Part shown: positions 24,401-59,096 of the stretch, piece by piece
How positions within the stretch are numbered: position 1 is the stretch's first letter
How the letters are laid out: each line of letters starts with the position of its first letter
Assembly: GCA_001600495.1 (NCBI GenBank)
Contig: BCKE01000090.1
Span: 9,355 to 68,551, forward strand
Length of the DNA stretch: 59,197 nt
From: Pilasporangium apinafurcum
Lineage: Eukaryota; Oomycota; Peronosporomycetes; Pythiales; Pythiaceae
Reading direction: 5' to 3'
The notes under the pieces: generated by a model
Database searches by the model: none
What the model was told of the DNA's origin: nothing
Seen by the model: only the letters and a program-made list of their open reading frames with translations
Position numbers and translations under genes: made by a program

Positions 24401-24454
24401 TGAACCTCATAATGCGGATTTAAAGGCCAGAGTCAGACTAGGTAACTCCGACAT

Positions 24455-24473
24455 CTGGACTCGATGAGTCCAG
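24455..24473 (-). ncRNA. Conserved 3' hairpin of IS607-like remnant (candidate guide-RNA part)
   Basis: Perfect 8-bp arms CTGGACTC and GAGTCCAG with a three-base loop on the minus strand, at the same position relative to RuvC-III as 56559-56579. Pairing is kept although the surrounding coding frame has decayed. Confidence 0.4.
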
Positions 24474-25117
24474 GAGAATAGGTGTTCATTCTTGAAAAAG
24501 ATGTTTCTAGCAGCGTTGACATCTCTGTCAGTGAGGACACTCCAAGACTTTCTGATACCAAACATCTCGCTGAGAAGTTGTTTCTGTTCCTTCGTTGGAT
24601 ACAGCCTCACTTTCAAAATGCTGTCTGGATTTAGTTTATCTATCTTACATCATTTGATCCTTTCCGAGTCTTCTAAGTATTCCTGCCTTCCTTCCTTCCA
24701 TTTCTTCTCACAGCGAAGAGGTTAACATGAGACGAGAGGTCTTCTTGGCGTTCTCTTGCTTTCATGTCTTCATTCTTGTCTTGATGAAGTTGTTGGTCGA
24801 CGTGAACCACGATTTGGATGCTATGCTCTTTACATATTTGTGCGAGGAGTTGATACTCAAATCGGTCTTGGACGATAACCGCAATCCTCGAGATCTACTT
24901 TTTACGTACCATTTCTACCTATCTGAACAGTCCTGACTTGCTGTCCTTGAGATCGGAATCAATATCGATCTCCTCGGGCATGCACTGTCATCGACTTGCA
25001 TCCTTTCTTGAAAAGAAGGATAGTGGAGAAAAGATCTCATTGAGGAGAATTGAAAACAAGTTTCTATCGATAGGGAGAAAAAACACGTCAAAGTATATCC
25101 CACCGGTGGGAGAAATG

Positions 25118-25129
25118 GGGGAATAAAGG
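25118..25129 (+). repeat. GGGGAATAAAGG motif copy
   Basis: One of four exact copies of this 12-mer in the window (others at 114-125, 53449-53460 minus, 55832-55843). Here it is preceded by one extra G. It lies 120 bp before the ATG of the CBS-domain gene and near the upstream edge of the IS607 remnant. Confidence 0.6.
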
Positions 25130-51543: not shown

Positions 51544-53289
51544 TCATCCTTTAAAGAGAGAACCTTGAGATGGCTGTTCCTTTGGTGCGTAGACTTTCTT
51601 GTTCTGTCCATAGTTGCATATCCAAATCGTGTCAGAAACTTCTTGAAGCTACTACATGCGCTAAAAACTTACCCGGTCGCCTTTGCCAGTTGCATCCTTT
51701 TTCCTGCGGTTCAAGTCTTTGCGGGAGCGATTCTTCGACTCTCCATGATCTCCTTCGTTCAATTCTGCTGCTTTCCCACCATTCAGTGCGCGGTCATTGC
51801 CTCCACGTGGCTTCCCACGCGCACGCCCACCAGATGAAGCTCCTTTCTTGCCTTTCTTGTCAGTCGGTTGGGAAGCTTTCTCAGGTGTATTTGCCTCCAC
51901 AACAGGTTCAGCGGTAGTAGCGAACGAAGAAAACTTTGGCGCCATTATGCGAACCATCCCTGGTTGCAGTTGTTCAGTACTCGCAGCCTCTGTCTTTGAC
52001 GGTGTATTTTTGGCTCGTGATCCGCGTGATTTAGTAGGTTCTAGTGTAACCAGAAGCGCCGACATGGTTTGTCTAGGAATCAATAAGATCATGTCAGAGT
52101 TTTGCTAGCTTACCTTGGCTGCTGGTTGCGTCGGCTGTCTTTTGTCGGTCATTGGATTTAGATTTGGTTTTCTCTTTGCCAGTTTTCTGTCCAACAACGT
52201 AATTAATCACTGGTGAGTTTTCTTATTGATGTGGAGGCACTTACCTCTTTCTTCCTCGACTGACGGCGCGCAGAACTGCCTTTTTCGAACGTTTTGTTGC
52301 CAACTTTCCCCTGTTGGACATAAGTTTAAATGAATATCATTTGAGTGCAAACCAGTTCATAAGATACCTGAAATAGAAACTCAACGACACACACCTTTCC
52401 TTTGTCGCGACTATGCGCCTTCTTCTCATTGAGGTACTTCACTAATGTCGCAATGGGCTTTTCCACTGTTTCTCCTTCCACAGAATCCGCCACTGCTTCA
52501 GCACTGGGGAGTTTCTAACAAGCGCAACAGTAGAAGCACGAATGAATACAGAACTTCCACAGAGATAAGAGCAGTCAACTCTGCACCCACTTCTTTCGGC
52601 TTCGCCAGCTCTTCCAGAAACGCAAGATACTCAGGATCACGGTCGATGGTGCCCATTTTCGCATCCTTCCTAGTTTTTTCACGCGGAATCTTCTGGTAGA
52701 GCGCGAATTCCACCTCCAGTGGCTGCTGCCCGTCTGTGAGGACAATGTGTCAAACCAATTGACATCTTTGAGTCATATATGTGATATTAAATCTTTGCTG
52801 CTTACCATTGCTATCGTCAAACGTCCGCCCATTCAAACCCGCAATAAGCGTTTTGGCCAGCTCTGGATCCTTCTTAAAATCCAAATACATGCGCGCCATT
52901 GTTGGTTGCCTATTGTTGCCGCGTACTTTGCCAGGGACAAAACGCCAAGCGAATTCCTTGCCGACGCCATGTTTCTCTAGCAGCGACCAGACGCCGTCCT
53001 CCGTCGCGGAGTACGGAATATGACGCACCACCACCTTTCGCATCACTGTGTTCACGGCGCGCGTGGGACGCGTGGCATTGCCGCTGGTGGACGCAGTGCG
53101 TGTGCTGCTGGTGGGTCCAGTAACTTTGCGCTTCGATTTGTCGTTCTTTGCAGTTTCTCCACTGACAAAGGACGGTGCATTGGCTGATGATGAAGCTGTT
53201 GGGGCTGATCCACGTCCGCCACCACGTCCACCGCGTCCTCGACCTTTGCCGCCACCGCGGCGATTCGTGCCGCTCTCGCTCTTCCGCAT
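51544..53289 (-). CDS. UPF3: UPF3 nonsense-mediated mRNA decay factor
   Basis: Multi-exon. Exons 53289-52806, 52733-52561, 52514-52395, 52310-52245 and 52186-52114 join in frame, followed by a downstream block (52065-51674) and a last small exon ending at 51544. An Arg/Gly-rich N-terminus precedes the Smg4/UPF3 RNP domain: KVVVRHIPYSATEDGVWSLL, WRFVPGKVR, ARMYLDFKKDPEL, FALYQKIPREKTRKD. The tail is Lys/Ser/Gly-rich and ends KVYAPKEQPS, a position where UPF3 binds exon-junction complexes. The family bridges the EJC to UPF2-UPF1. The junction between 52114 and 52065 does not join in frame with consensus sites, so the model there is uncertain. Confidence 0.85.
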
Positions 53290-53877
53290 TTCACTAATTC
53301 GGCACAGAGGGTTGGTTTATTGACAATGCTGGAGAATGTCCCCCAAGGAGCGGAGAACATTAGCCAACATTGAGGAACCGTTGGTCAACGCTATTGTCCC
53401 GAATTTTGTCCCGTTTTTATACAATCGTACAAGACCACACACGTTAATCCTTTATTCCCCACTTGTACAACGCGTTGTAGAATGATGTGGAGAGTAAAGA
53501 TTAAAACTAAGATTGCCTTGAGAGTAGACTTTAGGATTCATTGGATGGAGAGACTCCTTGGTGGATCTTGCTGCGTGCGCAATCATCTTGAAAGGCCATG
53601 TTGACGATCAATCGCGTTTCCAGAAAAATTAAATTATACACCTTGGGTGAGGAAAAAAGGTTAAGATATATGGAGTTAGAAAAATCAACTCTTGAATGAA
53701 TCGTTTCCGGCTTCTCAATAGCGAAGCGTATTGAATTCAAGTATTTACCACCTCACGTCCTAAGTAGCCATCCATTGAGTGTTGCTTCAACACCATTTAC
53801 CAAGATAGAAAGAACTGTAGCTTTGAGAAACAGCAAACCAACTACGAGGCGTCCTTGTTTTTGAACGTTGTGATAAA
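53290..53877. other. Upstream interval between UPF3 and the Fanzor1 pseudogene
   Basis: About 590 bp with no gene. It contains the minus-strand GGGGAATAAAGG copy at 53449-53460, pointing at the UPF3 start 159 bp away and also forming the left arm of an inverted pair around the Fanzor1 gene. The rest is AT-rich. Confidence 0.5.
53449..53460 (-). repeat. GGGGAATAAAGG copy, left arm around Fanzor1
   Basis: Reads CCTTTATTCCCC on the plus strand. It is inverted relative to 55832-55843, and the two bracket the Fanzor1 pseudogene with outer limits 53449-55843. The shared match extends to about 13 bp. Flanking bases do not show a clean target duplication. Confidence 0.55.
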
Positions 53878-55822
53878 ATGCCATTAACAAGCGACGGTAT
53901 TGAAGAGAAGACCGCTAAAAAGCGGAGAGCTCGCCCGGATTTTGCGGAACGGAAAGTTCGACAAAAGCAAAGCGTATACACCACTGTGAAGACTGAGTGG
54001 CGAAAGTTTTGCAAAGACAAAAGAATAGTAAAAAAGATTGATGAGGCTGTGCGACTTTGTTCAAGAATAGCATGTGAGGCATCCATGCTGGCGTCTGTTC
54101 ATGTTCTGCGATTATTGGAAGCTGGCGAAGAACTCCCTTCATTGGATAGTAACTTTTTCAAGTGATGCTCATCTGCAATAGCCAACTTGAGCAACAACAG
54201 AGAGGTCGCCAATCCTGAATTGGAAACCAGTCGGAATATTTACATGACCCAGCACCCTTCAGTTTATGAACCGACAGAGAAGAAAGCCTATATGAGTCAG
54301 ATATTGGTTATGATCACTCAGCACGCAAGGCAGAATTTTCAAGTCAGCAACCAATTGACGTTCTACTCCCGATTGTATAAATGGATGCGCCTGCAGATAC
54401 GTCTTCACAACAGTGACTATTTTGAAAAGCATCAAGGCAAGATAATCAAGAGTGCTGTTTCACTGCTGGTCCGTGCAAGCACCCGAACTCAGCATAGCTT
54501 ATCCAACCTGATGTCCGCGTACTCCAAGTTCAAGAAATATCCCATCCCTACTGAAGAGATTGTTTGGATGCAGGAGTTATCGGATAGAGTGAGAAACGAG
54601 ATCGGACCGCTGCCACTCGACTTGAACAAATCACCGGAACGTCACATACCTTTTCTCGGCACAATGTTGAAAGACATACAAGCTTGTGTGGATGATGGAA
54701 TGAAGGGTTGCCGAGTCTGGTCTCTGCTTCCACAGAAACAGTTCAAACCCATTTTCATCAAGATCAACACCACCGTCCTGAAGGAACTTGCTAAGGCTTT
54801 GAATGACCCTGTTGAGCTTTACGCCGACAAAGCTGAGTTATGGCGCACGTACTTCAATATAGGCCTTGTAACCAAAGGTCAGCGAAAGGAGTTTGAGCAC
54901 TTCACCTCGACCGATGGTATGTCAGTTAGTGTGATAATCTCCCGTCCAAAGCTTCCCATGAGAGAGAAAAAAGACATTTTCTCTTGAGGACCGAATCATC
55001 AATTTGGGCCCGAGAAGAAAGAAGATCTTCACTGCTGTTGTCTACAAAGAAGAAAGCATGGTTACGCTGCAAAAACTGAAAGGAGAGAACGTGAAACATG
55101 AAGTCATCCACTGGTCGAAGGGTCGTTTCTACAGAGAGTGCGGCTACCACAGACGAACAAAGTTGACGAAAGAGTAGATTGATGCTCAGCCTGACATCAA
55201 AACCTTCAATGAAAACGTTCCTTCGGCAAAAGTTGTGAACCTTGCCTCCTATTTGAAACGGATGAGATTTTGTCTCGTGTATTTGGATCGTCTTCTTGGC
55301 TTCTATTTATCAAAGAAGATGAAGAGGCTACGATGGTCGACCTACATTCGTCGATAACAGACGTACGAGAAGGTAGCCAAGAACCTTACAGGTGGCGATA
55401 AATGAACCGTTATCGCGTATGGAGATGCAAGTTTCACAAGCTCAGCTAAAGGCAACATTGCTGTTCCCACAACGACCCTACGGAAGCAAATTGGCTCCAG
55501 GTGTCGTGCTGCTGATGTGGACGAGTTCAAGACGAGCAAGCTGTGTTGTGCTTGTCACAAGAAGATGAAGGGGTTCATCCTTGACGGGAAAATTATCGGT
55601 GACGGTCTTTATGGTGTGCGACACTGCAAAAATAGTGAATGCCATCGCACATTGTGGGACCGTGAAATCAACGCCGCAATCAACATTTTGAGACTATTCA
55701 TCGACCAAGTGAAGAAAAAGTGGAGACTCAAGGCGTTCACGAGGAAAGAGAATGAATTGGTACTCGAAATCAAAAACCGAGGCGATAAACGACCTCACTG
55801 CTATGATTCCGGAAACGGATGA
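53878..55822 (+). pseudogene. Fanzor1 (eukaryotic TnpB homologue), inactivated
   Basis: A Fanzor1-like reading runs the whole span but is broken. There is an in-frame TGA at 54163, a +1 frame change near 54970-54983, then TAG at 55175, TAA at 55355 and TGA at 55403. Recognisable parts: RIACEASMLASVHVLRLLE near the start; a RuvC-I region INLGPRRKKIFTAVV, where the catalytic Asp is Gly; a YGDASF...KGNIAVP block; the relocated Fanzor Glu in DVDEFKTSKLC; and a zinc ribbon CCACHKKM ... CKNSECHRTLWDREINAAINIL with the RuvC-III Asp intact. Active Fanzors are RNA-guided DNA nucleases linked to transposons. The stop codon lies 9 bp from the right GGGGAATAAAGG motif. Confidence 0.85.
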
Positions 55823-55831
55823 GTGTAATCT

Positions 55832-55843
55832 GGGGAATAAAGG
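55832..55843 (+). repeat. GGGGAATAAAGG copy, right arm around Fanzor1
   Basis: Starts 9 bp after the Fanzor1 stop codon and is the inverse of 53449-53460. In TnpB/Fanzor elements the guide RNA overlaps the 3' end of the gene and the right terminus, so this is where the RNA would end if this is the true terminus. Confidence 0.5.
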
Positions 55844-55859
55844 TTATATCCATCCTGAA

Positions 55860-56629
55860 ACCATTAGAGGGTGGGATCTTTAAGGGTCGATTAATGGGCA
55901 CAGAACGCGGCTGTATGATCTTGAATCAATTGTCTGCATCCCAATGTTGAAAGAATTCAAACAGATAGACTCCATTCGAACGTACGCAATCGATCCCGGA
56001 GTCTGTAGTTTTATAATTTTGTACAGCTCCTATAGCATGACGTTAAGCGTGGATGACACCAAACACGCAATGTTCAACCGTTGTCTGTTGACCAATCGCC
56101 TCAAGTCTCGACTGTCTCAAGAAAAGTCCAAGCGAAAATGTCATCACATGAGAAAGAGAGTTTACAGAATCTTTCAGTGAATGAAAGCGATGATGTCAGA
56201 CACGCATCACAAAGTCTCCAAGTGGCTGTCGGACAACTACCACGAAGTCCTTCTTCCATCCTTTGGGACCTCGAAGCTGACGTCCAAGTAAAAAGGATTT
56301 CAAGCAAGGTATCAAGATCAATGCTCACGTTGTCTCACTACAAGTTCAAGATGCTACTCAAGTACAAGATGGAAAGGGCTGGAGGACGCATGATCGAATG
56401 TGAGGAAAATTATACAGCAAAGACTTGTTCTCACTGTGAGAGAATCAACCATGCAATGAAGCACCAGAAAGTCTTTCAGTGCCCTCACTACAAGTTCGTC
56501 TTTGACAGAGATGTCAAGGCTGTTAGAAACATCTTTCTCAAGAATGAGCACCTACTTTCCTGGACTTATCGAGTCCAGGTGTCAGAGATGAGTATTCTGC
56601 AGTTGTCTAGTCTTAGCTTTTGCTGTTGA
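55860..56629 (+). pseudogene. TnpB/Fanzor2-like fragment, 5'-truncated and frameshifted
   Basis: A second, different TnpB-type sequence begins mid-gene. RuvC-I is present (RTYAIDPGVCSFI, 55977-56018). The linker HMRKRVYRIFQ is followed by TGA (56178), then MSDTHHKVSKWLSDNYHEVLLPSFGTSKL, where the catalytic RuvC-II Glu is Gly. After a frame change come SRSMLTLSHYKFKMLLKYK, ENYTAKTCSHC and DRDVKAVRNIFLKNEHL (RuvC-III Asp). The second zinc-ribbon pair is CPHY, lacking one Cys. The closest relative in the window is the IS607-linked copy at 24.4 kb. No tnpA was found beside it. It directly abuts the Fanzor1 unit. Confidence 0.8.
56559..56579 (+). ncRNA. Conserved 3' hairpin of TnpB/Fanzor2 fragment (candidate guide-RNA part)
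   Basis: Arms CCTGGACT and AGTCCAGG enclose a five-base loop, and the neighbouring T-G pair can extend the stem. The related element at 24455-24473 keeps arms CTGGACTC/GAGTCCAG. Both sit just after the DRD...KNEHL codons, where TnpB-family guide RNAs overlap the gene end. The RNA role is inference. Confidence 0.4.
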
Positions 56630-56707
56630 CTCGGACCCAAAAGAAAAAACAGGAACTCCTCCCTGAGTTACTTTCGTATCTCATATGATATCATGAGGTT
56701 ACAATAT

Positions 56708-58963
56708 TTACAGCGAAACTGCACTAGTTCCAGAGCTCGACCCACTCGCACAAAGGAAGATCATATCTGCCATCAGCTTCCCCGTCGCGTCGTCCTTCTG
56801 GTTCTCTTCCCACACTGCTGCCGGAATCGAATGTTGCAAAGCAGAACCAGTGGACACGATCGCTCCAAGCCAAATGCGAGCCAAAGGGGCTAGGAAAGGG
56901 TACCGTTCGCGGTTGGTTTGCCACCACTGGAATGGACATGAAATGCGTGTTTTACGCAGCTGATGCTCATTGAAGTACATCGATACTTCGTTGGAGACGT
57001 AGAGCCTCGTTTGGGCAATTTCTGTCTCTCGTGATAGAGAATCGGACGAACTTCCTTCCTCATCTTCATCGTACAGCAGTCGATGCATTAACCCATGACC
57101 AGACGCTCGACCCACTCCATACATGATATCGCTGTCAAATTCAGTCCCCAGACTGCCGAGTGCGTCTGTTGATGAGGGCATTTGGCTGATATACAAGTCC
57201 ATCGCTCGTTCAATAAGTGTCAACTTGCAGACGACGCGCTCTTCCTCTGTCATATGCCGCATTCTGCCGTAACGCGGGTCTAACACTGAGCACCACAGGA
57301 GCTCCTGACATAGAGAATCGTATCGAAGTGCGAACTCGTTCAATATCGCAGTTCGTATAGAGTGTAAGTGCGAATTAGTCTCTGCGCTATTGTAGTCCAG
57401 TGTCGTCTCATAGCGTACGGATAGCTCGTTAAAGATATCTGCACGCTTAAGTTGTTGCTGCACCATCGCCAAACACGGGAGAATGAACGGCAACGAGCAA
57501 AATTTTTCATTCGACAAGACCCCTTTCACTTCATAAAACGGTCGTATCAGCAGCACCAATGCTTCTGCCATAAACCAGATCCCTGTGGATGGCTTAATTC
57601 TTTCTGTAATGTTAGGAAACTCCTTGTGACCATCAGGCGTTGATGCATAATCGAGAAAAGTATCAACAGAAGACTGCCACGGCACCGTTCGAGACAAAAA
57701 CTCGTACATATCTACCCATGATCGTGGGTTACTGTCGAAAATAGGAAACTTGAGATTTTCCCCACTACTCGCAGTGTGTAGCTGCTGTAGCTTCTCTCGA
57801 GTATTTTGATCATTGCAGAGAGCATGCACAAGACTCCATAGCTGGGTAATGATGCTGCTTATCAGAGAAGGAGTAGATTGTGGCAACTGCCCATCGCTTT
57901 GTTCGCCTTCGGCGTGAATAATTGGGCTAATCGATTCCTTCTTGCTGTTGAAATCACCAAAAGATTTGGATAAGACTTGTTCCAGCGTAGTTGAGACGTC
58001 GTGGAAAATCCTTAGCTCCAGATTTTCAGCTGCTTGTTCGACTCTTTCGTCTGGAGCGATCAAAAGTAAAGATAGCTGTTGTTTGTGAAGCCCCCACTCA
58101 CGTAAAAAGAATTGAAGTTTCTCGCCGACTAGCTCTTCATTGGATTGACTAGTTAGTGGAATCACATCCAGCGTCCATGTGGTCACCACAAACTCTTCAT
58201 TCAGAAAACGACATGACAGCGCCATGAATGCCGCTGTTGTTTCTTGTCCTGGAGAGTGCCAGAGATTAGCTGTGAGAGCGAAGTGACCGACTTCTTTCTT
58301 CACACGCTGCTTTATGTCGAACTTCATGGTCTCCGCCATTACTTCCAGCCCATGCTTCAGGGCTTCGTGATTCGGCACCACAAATGACGATGGTTGACTG
58401 GCGCAAAGGTAGTCAACGAAATCCAGAAATCCTGCGTCTCCTACAATTGAAAGTGGCCGCATGTGACGACAGAGCCACTTCATTAACAATTCATTTCCAT
58501 TGCGCTGTTCAATGCTTCCAAAGCTGCCCACGCGTGGTCTTTTCACTCCATTACCGTGGACTTTCGTCACCTGTTGCTGCTGGTGATGATTATCATCGGG
58601 TGACAGTTGAATTTGATCGGACGGTCGCTTGTGCCCCTTGCGCTGTGTCTTTTTGTGGGGTAAGGCCATCGTTCTCTTACTGTTACTCTCTGCCTGCGAA
58701 GACTGGTGGCGCGCTAACTCCTTCTTGTGGAACCGCTCCATGTGTCGACGGACGGAATTGCTTGAGCCTTTCTTGAAGCGGAACATCTTGTTGCACTTGA
58801 GACAAAATGCATCGGAAGCGTCTTGACTGAGCCAGTGGGTCTGATCCTCCGGTGGTGTCTCCCCTGCGGGTGCAACTAGCTTGATAAACTGCCAGTATTC
58901 GGATTTGCGGATGCGCGGGCAGTCGTAGAGTAGCAGGTCTCCATGCGCCACAGCGTTGCTCAT
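56708..58963 (-). CDS. BED zinc finger, hAT-transposase-derived protein
   Basis: An intact 751-codon single exon. A BED finger lies at ~54-80 (CLKCNKMFRFKKGSSNSVRRHMERFH). The hAT RNase H-like region follows, but key positions differ. HFALTANLWHS has Asn where hAT enzymes have the first catalytic Asp (TTDxWTS). The expected TDNxxN segment is LLIAPDERVEQAAENL. PRSWVDMYEFLSR replaces TRWNSTYxML. VLDPRYGRM is conserved. The C-terminal dimerisation block is kept in part (PFQWWQTNRERYPFLAPLARIWL), but the following SxxERxFS is replaced. An uninterrupted frame with catalytic loss suggests a domesticated, DNA-binding gene. It starts about 135 bp from the right inverted repeat and is transcribed inward. 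Confidence 0.82.
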   Translation of the reverse strand: MSNAVAHGDLLLYDCPRIRKSEYWQFIKLVAPAGETPPEDQTHWLSQDASDAFCLKCNKMFRFKKGSSNSVRRHMERFHKKELARHQSSQAESNSKRTMALPHKKTQRKGHKRPSDQIQLSPDDNHHQQQQVTKVHGNGVKRPRVGSFGSIEQRNGNELLMKWLCRHMRPLSIVGDAGFLDFVDYLCASQPSSFVVPNHEALKHGLEVMAETMKFDIKQRVKKEVGHFALTANLWHSPGQETTAAFMALSCRFLNEEFVVTTWTLDVIPLTSQSNEELVGEKLQFFLREWGLHKQQLSLLLIAPDERVEQAAENLELRIFHDVSTTLEQVLSKSFGDFNSKKESISPIIHAEGEQSDGQLPQSTPSLISSIITQLWSLVHALCNDQNTREKLQQLHTASSGENLKFPIFDSNPRSWVDMYEFLSRTVPWQSSVDTFLDYASTPDGHKEFPNITERIKPSTGIWFMAEALVLLIRPFYEVKGVLSNEKFCSLPFILPCLAMVQQQLKRADIFNELSVRYETTLDYNSAETNSHLHSIRTAILNEFALRYDSLCQELLWCSVLDPRYGRMRHMTEEERVVCKLTLIERAMDLYISQMPSSTDALGSLGTEFDSDIMYGVGRASGHGLMHRLLYDEDEEGSSSDSLSRETEIAQTRLYVSNEVSMYFNEHQLRKTRISCPFQWWQTNRERYPFLAPLARIWLGAIVSTGSALQHSIPAAVWEENQKDDATGKLMADMIFLCASGSSSGTSAVSL

Positions 58964-59096
58964 GGTGCCAGCAAGACGGACAGAAAGAAGGAGGTAAAGT
59001 AGTTAACAACCGCTAACAGCCACTAACCGCCCCTCACATTCAGAGGGCTCTCTATTGAGGATATATAAGGTATACTAGGTCAAGAAGGCTTCATTT

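Follow-up and report, generated by a model that had tools for sequence, protein, structure and literature searches.

Shared 5' terminus beside TTAN in a decayed Fanzor1 element family and one Fanzor2 clade of Pilasporangium apinafurcum

The DNA analysed here (the window) is a stretch of 59,197 nucleotides from the oomycete Pilasporangium apinafurcum (assembly GCA_001600495.1, contig BCKE01000090.1, positions 9,355 to 68,551), in which 53449-55843 is a decayed element of the RNA-guided nuclease Fanzor1, hereafter F1, directly followed by a broken Fanzor2 copy. We were able to show that the same 5' terminus, CCTTTATTCCCC, stands beside TTAN both in F1 and in one clade of the Fanzor2 copies of this genome, hereafter F2*. 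It appears rather probable that a single trans-acting transposase working on the shared ends moves both F1 and F2*, and that F2* was captured once from an IS607-type Fanzor2. F2* looks like a Fanzor2 caught while moving from IS607 elements into the carrier family that holds Fanzor1.

F1 is bounded by a perfect 13-bp inverted pair (53449-53461 and 55831-55843), which forms its outermost repeats; the start at 53449 given by an initial annotation, made from the sequence alone, proved to be the first base of this repeat. In the genome (36.5 Mb, 136 contigs) a DNA search scored 40 of 303 candidate places, the window's own included, and the other 39 are 86-92% identical to the window copy, most over about 2.4 kb. 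Each end of F1 forms a palindrome; CCTTTATTCCCC and GGGGAATAAAGG frame these palindromes and TTAN adjoins them, in the order TTAN/CCTTTATTCCCC...GGGGAATAAAGG/TTAN. The left-end palindrome of the window copy recurs in other copies and folds as DNA at -8.7 kcal/mol (z -4.43), which none of 200 shuffles equalled; beyond the right terminal repeat most of the other palindrome is gone, and the two flanks of this copy are unlike (TTAAT on the left, TTAT on the right). The 13-mer CCTTTATTCCCCA has 683 genome matches at one mismatch or fewer, against 18 for the reversed control, and a 17-base end pattern occurs six times in the window (up to three mismatches) where 0.30 are expected, a number reached in none of 100 shuffles. 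Among 38 copies and derivatives examined for their flanks, both 4-mers were readable in 27; they are identical in 14 of the 27, and TTA stands on both sides in 18, of which 14 also agree in the fourth base (permutation p 0.0047). These counts give moderate support to a target duplication of 4 bp, TTAN.

The F2* copies begin with TTAN/CCTTTATTCCCC and end with AATAACGG/TTAN, having lost the 3' end of the lineage to which the window's own Fanzor2 copy, itself outside the clade, belongs. Directly after TTAN, F1 left ends and F2* 5' ends agree over the first 13-16 bases. With patterns that include TTA and up to three mismatches allowed, the F2* 5' end was found 20 times and the 3' end 64 times in the genome, the reversed controls giving none; TTA begins 19 of the 20 5' matches and is exact at the end of 53 of the 64 3' matches. 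Both ends were read in seven copies (L003, L004, L006, L007, L009, L013 and L025), the 5' end of L003 being read in L099 with 605 bases between them unread. Their flanking 4-mers agree in five of the seven (L003, L004, L006 and L009, plus L007 if the last element base is counted as changed) and disagree in L013 and L025. In a tree of 19 copies, a branch with support 96/93 sets the eight that have F2* 3' ends apart from the others. In L065, a copy of the window's kind, roughly the outermost 60 bases of the F2* 5' end are missing. The active-site motif of the recombinase TnpA, RVSS, has become RVLS in L002 and L003, the two F2* copies that contain it, whereas L022, L061, L063 and the near-identical L064 and L065 retain the serine. 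F2* includes copies whose nuclease frame is open, such as L003 with 504 open codons across the helix-turn-helix (HTH), RuvC and zinc-ribbon parts. With a somewhat better than even chance, this genome holds the stages of the transition, from IS607-type Fanzor2 with TnpA to a TnpA-less clade with TTAN/CCTTTATTCCCC ends, together with Fanzor1 on the same ends.

A putative cut-and-paste transposase targeting TTAN would move F1 and F2* in trans via their shared ends. F2* would have arisen once from an IS607-type Fanzor2 of the window copy's kind, gaining the ends and giving up TnpA; the tree, the altered 3' end and the replacement of serine by leucine are our reasons for proposing a single origin with loss of TnpA. 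The resolvase match in L002, and the location of all three such matches of the genome next to Fanzor2 copies, speak for an origin from IS607. Following what is published for other Fanzors, the right-end hairpin would act as scaffold of the guide RNA, the right flank might serve as guide and TTAN as target-adjacent motif, and the nuclease would re-cut the emptied site, so that repair could restore the element. The hairpin was examined in 18 of the 21 right ends found, L033, L044 and L057 being excluded. Changes on both sides of a pair occur in 13 cells, against a shuffle value of 7.5 (13 being reached in 4 of 500), and the covariation score is 0.141 compared with 0.116 in shuffles (1 of 500), while slid controls stay at or below 0.055.

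Several observations speak against a common mover with these properties. Our searches found no transposase with these ends, and no empty site was seen. In 9 of the 27 readable F1 pairs TTA is missing on one side, and the fourth base disagrees in 4 of the 18 pairs with TTA on both. Two further measures of the hairpin, the number of pairs changed on both sides (217 of 500) and of further pair types (124 of 500), are not above shuffles. The F2* ends form only an imperfect inverted pair (CC.TTATT), the tree rests on 329 columns and places the sister of F2* weakly (L022 being nearest), and the change of the TnpA serine was seen in two copies only. Finally, 2 of 20 single end 13-mers match the F1 end over 27-29 bases, beyond which their sequence is unrelated (L090 on contig C6, L097 on contig C8).

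In the copies read, a transposase of their own was not recognised: F1 carries the nuclease only, and F2* a decayed TnpA. No third type of element on these ends was recognised among the 20 single 13-mers, of which 13 belong to F1, five to F2* and two are unplaced; the latter, L090 and L097, may be truncated copies or another type of element. Ten further end-bearing places were all pieces of F1, these readings covering a small part of the 683 matches. Viral contigs with the end pattern were considered as well, and their six matches, three near-identical pairs, look like phage DNA matching by chance.

Three other explanations were weighed. That a piggyBac-type transposase of the host genome is the mover is doubtful. 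piggyBac duplicates TTAA, and the flanks observed here are of 4 bp and dominated by TTAA; moreover, the genome has three places matching PF13843, one of them within an open frame of 546 amino acids. Around two of these three places (on contigs C5 and C12), however, no exact CCTTTATTCCCCA lies within 40 kb among the matches listed. Also improbable, in our judgement, is a chance meeting of two abundant dead repeats, in which the common end would be a small terminal segment once exchanged by recombination and no common transposase would act on both. Contacts are expected between families as abundant as these, with 303 first-look candidates for Fanzor1 and 745 for Fanzor2 in the genome, and the shared block is only 13-16 bp long. 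In both families, however, it begins precisely where the element does, right behind TTAN, and the 20 and 64 end matches show that F2* has spread while carrying these ends, which calls for a factor recognising them. An IS607-type serine recombinase supplied in trans by intact TnpA copies is very improbable, even if the ancestry of F2* lies in IS607-type elements and remnants of TnpA occur, since no intact TnpA was seen among the three resolvase matches of the genome (15 candidates scored; all directly upstream of Fanzor2 copies, two with internal stops), the catalytic serine is changed in L002 (resolvase match 2.1e-06) and L003, and the fourth flanking base agrees on both sides, as is not expected of a 2-bp crossover. 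IS607-type elements are, in addition, described as having neither terminal inverted repeats nor duplications of their target (PMC3627910, section 13).

Several known systems come close to the elements described here. The Fanzor1 elements of insect viruses described by Bao and Jurka (SFav-1, HVav-1, PUgv-1, HAgv-1 and HAmn-1; PMC3627910, section 12) have, like F1, 4-bp TTAN duplications and 13-bp terminal inverted repeats, and the section assigns them no transposase. Compared by description and not by repeat sequence, F1 differs from them in its oomycete-like genome, its high copy number, its palindromic ends and a 5' end held in common with Fanzor2. Yoon et al. report that DNA transposons of molluscs and of an alga contain Fanzor2, and they report no Fanzor1 in IS607 elements (PMC10711439). 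The Fanzor2* of Chloropicon primus and of molluscs resemble F2* in that terminal repeats and a target duplication take the place of IS607 (PMC10711439, section 24); in F2*, by contrast, TnpA can still be recognised, relatives of the IS607 type are found in the same genome, and Fanzor1 is carried on the same ends. A MerR-headed serine recombinase joined to Fanzor2 marks ISvMimi_1 and other IS607 elements (PMC3627910, section 13) and also Phytophthora infestans P0120; the window's second fragment is of this type, although the window copy is internally deleted and the F2* clade has left that type. As in F1, the SpuFz1 loci and "ghost" elements of Spizellomyces punctatus comprise many inverted-repeat loci and many ends without a gene (PMC10432273); the SpuFz1 motif is CATA, and the F1 derivatives, unlike the ghosts, keep parts of the gene. 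The target motif of GtFz1 is given there as TTAAN (PMC10432273). No earlier report of ends shared by Fanzor1 and Fanzor2 is announced in the titles and abstract openings of the literature covered, supplements, bioRxiv and most subscription journals lying outside this scope.

These relations bear on the question of how Fanzors came to leave IS607 elements and to spread among unrelated transposons of eukaryotes. The published intermediates, of alga and molluscs, are single stages as presented in PMC10711439 (section 24). With an IS607-type Fanzor2, an intermediate and a Fanzor1 on the same ends in one genome, the order and the direction of capture become testable, and the transposase of the TTAN-type Fanzor1 elements can be sought by the shared ends. 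If one transposase indeed serves two nuclease clades, the exchange of nucleases on fixed ends would be directly testable.

The two nucleases of the window are listed with their parts in the table. That they belong to two lineages, as first annotated, is borne out by their own profiles. The Fanzor1 profile (10 rows: four database relatives, four genome copies and two window pieces) finds the solved structures of SpuFz1 (7e-12) and GtFz1 (3.8e-08), the next hit being the "Transposase" chain 9j09 at 0.13, while the Fanzor2 profile (26 sequences) finds mimivirus L79 at 1.2e-57 over nearly its full length and ISDra2 TnpB at 2.2e-22. We take L79 to be a Fanzor2, consistent with the ISvMimi elements. 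Aligned with each other, the two profiles share 59 zinc-ribbon columns only. Both fragments are real, with matches to the Pfam domain TNB (PF07282) at 55406-55819 (8.3e-07) for Fanzor1 and at 56057-56626 (1.6e-17) for Fanzor2, and both are broken by stops and frame changes, again in agreement with the initial annotation.

Table. Features of the two nuclease elements and of a further Fanzor2 derivative in the window
Feature	Position	Strand	Remark
F1, decayed Fanzor1 element	53449..55843	+	13-bp inverted pair at termini; 40 scored genome places
Left-end palindrome of F1, including flanking TTAAT	53444..53504	+	DNA fold; same palindrome in other copies
Fanzor1 coding remnant	53878..55822	+	in-frame stops and one frame change
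Fanzor1 RuvC-I region	54998..55030	+	GPR replaces DPG
Relocated RuvC Glu and first zinc Cys pair of Fanzor1	55514..55555	+	DVDEFKTSK
Fanzor1 RuvC-III region	55652..55678	+	WDRE
Right terminal repeat of F1	55831..55843	+	
TTAT, right flank of F1	55844..55847	+	sequence
Internally deleted IS607-type TnpA and Fanzor2 element	55844 to about 56699	+	adjoins F1
MerR-type HTH head remnant of IS607 TnpA	55845..55931	+	translation and visual comparison with P0120
Fanzor2 remnant, RuvC-I to zinc ribbon	55946..56629	+	internal deletion fuses TnpA remnant to Fanzor2
Fanzor2 RuvC-I	55986..56012	+	DPG intact
Canonical RuvC-II Glu place of Fanzor2	56253..56279	+	G in window, variable among relatives
Relocated RuvC Glu and first zinc Cys pair of Fanzor2	56396..56437	+	ECEENYTAKTC
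Fanzor2 RuvC-III	56501..56524	+	FDRD
Fanzor2 element 3' end	56690..56699	+	...GAGGT; similarity among copies ceases about here
Second Fanzor2 derivative, F2* clade	24446..25129	-	TTAG/CCTTTATTCCCC at 5' end; internally deleted

In the Fanzor1 remnant, the loss of the RuvC-I aspartate noted before could be confirmed, since GPR in the window faces an aspartate in all eight relatives in view that cover the position (P0123, P0124, P0126, P0001, L072, L041, L042 and L071). The full DPG is found in the relatives and in most of the genome copies in view, the exceptions being L041 (DLG) and P0001 (DSG). Despite the altered RuvC-I, the relocated glutamate in DVDEFKTSK is retained, as had been read from the sequence. 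The RuvC-III position is changed as well, aspartate being present in eight of the nine other genome copies in view and glycine in L074; we do not call this change disabling, because the database relative P0126 and the solved GtFz1 have asparagine there. An Rfam scan of 53300-56800 gave nothing that reached the gathering score, and phage records gave no DNA match to 53444-54600.

The second fragment is a Fanzor2 with a MerR-headed TnpA remnant of the IS607 type. The TnpA head was overlooked in the initial annotation; the matching region in L063 scores as MerR at 3.2e-04, under the Pfam cut-off, and the resolvase part is seen in relatives only, having been deleted from the window copy. In P0120 the same TnpA is joined to the head of a Fanzor2, its IS607 transposase score being 115.8 against a cut-off of 110, and the named relatives of the Fanzor2 of this genome come from Globisporangium and Phytophthora. 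The fragment had been taken for a TnpB-like protein with canonical RuvC order. It has instead DPG and a relocated glutamate seven residues ahead of the first zinc cysteine, invariant (E434) across the 26-sequence alignment, and this combination is given as the Fanzor fingerprint in PMC10711439 (section 23). At the place where prokaryotic TnpB carries its glutamate, about 50 residues before the zinc motif, the window has glycine. What had been read as a loss of the RuvC-II glutamate is no loss, the place being occupied by G, A, K, Q or H, and once by E (L022), in the genome copies and database relatives examined. The 3' end of this lineage is GAGG(T), and in eight other copies the flanks beyond it are unlike each other.

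The contact at 55843/55844 had been explained by a repeated insertion target or by one element landing in another. The second idea is plausible in so far as Fanzor2 relatives extend leftward past the junction, for 29 to more than 600 bases in pairwise alignments with L004, while the window does not; left of F1 it holds the upstream region of a UPF3-like gene, with no match among the other 67 loci compared. Most likely, a Fanzor1 copy would have inserted at TTAT in the TnpA gene of a Fanzor2 copy, and a deletion, or recombination between Fanzor1 copies, would later have removed the left part of the latter. The contact has the appearance of such a left-truncated Fanzor2 element with a Fanzor1 in it, and recombination between two Fanzor1 copies would give the same picture. 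A hotspot is not needed for the contact, and the idea of a repeated insertion target finds no support. In the flanks (up to 1.5 kb) of the other 29 fetched Fanzor1 loci, matches to the window's Fanzor2 part, the one lineage used as query, occur at four only (L039, L049, L050 and L059), the nearest 411 bases from the Fanzor1 end; L039 has in addition a Fanzor2 5' piece about 216 bases away.

Among 30 fetched Fanzor1 copies the longest open stretch is 549 codons, and 29 have one to seven stops in the part compared, the thirtieth being the reference itself; in a genome-wide protein search (79 of 447 candidates scored) the only stop-free row of at least 500 residues is the query's own place. The ratio of nonsynonymous to synonymous changes (dN/dS) has a median of 0.53 in 435 pairs of full-length copies. 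A subfamily in which a deletion has removed RuvC-I (L069, L070, L073 and L074) occupies at least 40 places in the DNA, some with frames open across the deletion. In a separate protein search for it, 29 rows span residue 1 to at least 319 of 333, and eight of them, the query's own place included, are stop-free; neutral simulation gave stop-free copies in 1-6% of runs, with all divergence placed on one branch and the expected stops hence overstated. Uncorrected dN/dS is 0.33-0.62 (six pairs of four fetched copies), and transitions dominate the differences. Over the three codon positions these are spread evenly after the deletion point (66:68:68) and as 122:80:148 before it, which indicates some constraint. 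A functional nuclease-dead mini-Fanzor1, as a possible repressor, was considered and rejected, given the even distribution past the deletion and the excess of transitions. We treat the subfamily as a non-autonomous derivative, and the codon-position counts hint weakly at constraint on its first part. About two dozen rows of the genome-wide Fanzor1 protein search start at query residues 224-256 and cover the RuvC part of Fanzor1 only (for example C23:151213-152157 and C10:699912-700847), often with a frame length near 476; a few, on contigs C46 and C80, are fuller Fanzor1 copies split by a frame change.

For the second Fanzor2 derivative of the window, the F2* copy on the minus strand, a 3' end was not found at 24446-25129. 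Elsewhere, pieces of about 510 bp resembling miniature inverted-repeat transposable elements lie between F2* 5' and 3' patterns (C16:354535-355040, C18:322862-323377 and C40:71333-71841). The genome also has a third TnpB-like lineage, represented by L005 (1480-3195, minus strand, on contig C135) and L001 (on contig C7), with an open frame of 691 amino acids and relatives of about 640 amino acids that are common in metagenomes. It has DPG in RuvC-I, alanine (A523) at the relocated place and a glutamate at about the canonical place (EKFESQG), and this combination of DPG and canonical glutamate differs from the Fanzor fingerprint. As for the neighbours of the two elements, F1 lies directly upstream of a UPF3-like coding piece (Smg4_UPF3, 1.2e-11) at 52750-53316 on the minus strand, and beside the Fanzor2 3' end an open frame of 764 codons (56708-59002, minus strand) has matches to the hAT dimerisation domain and the BED finger under the Pfam cut-offs.

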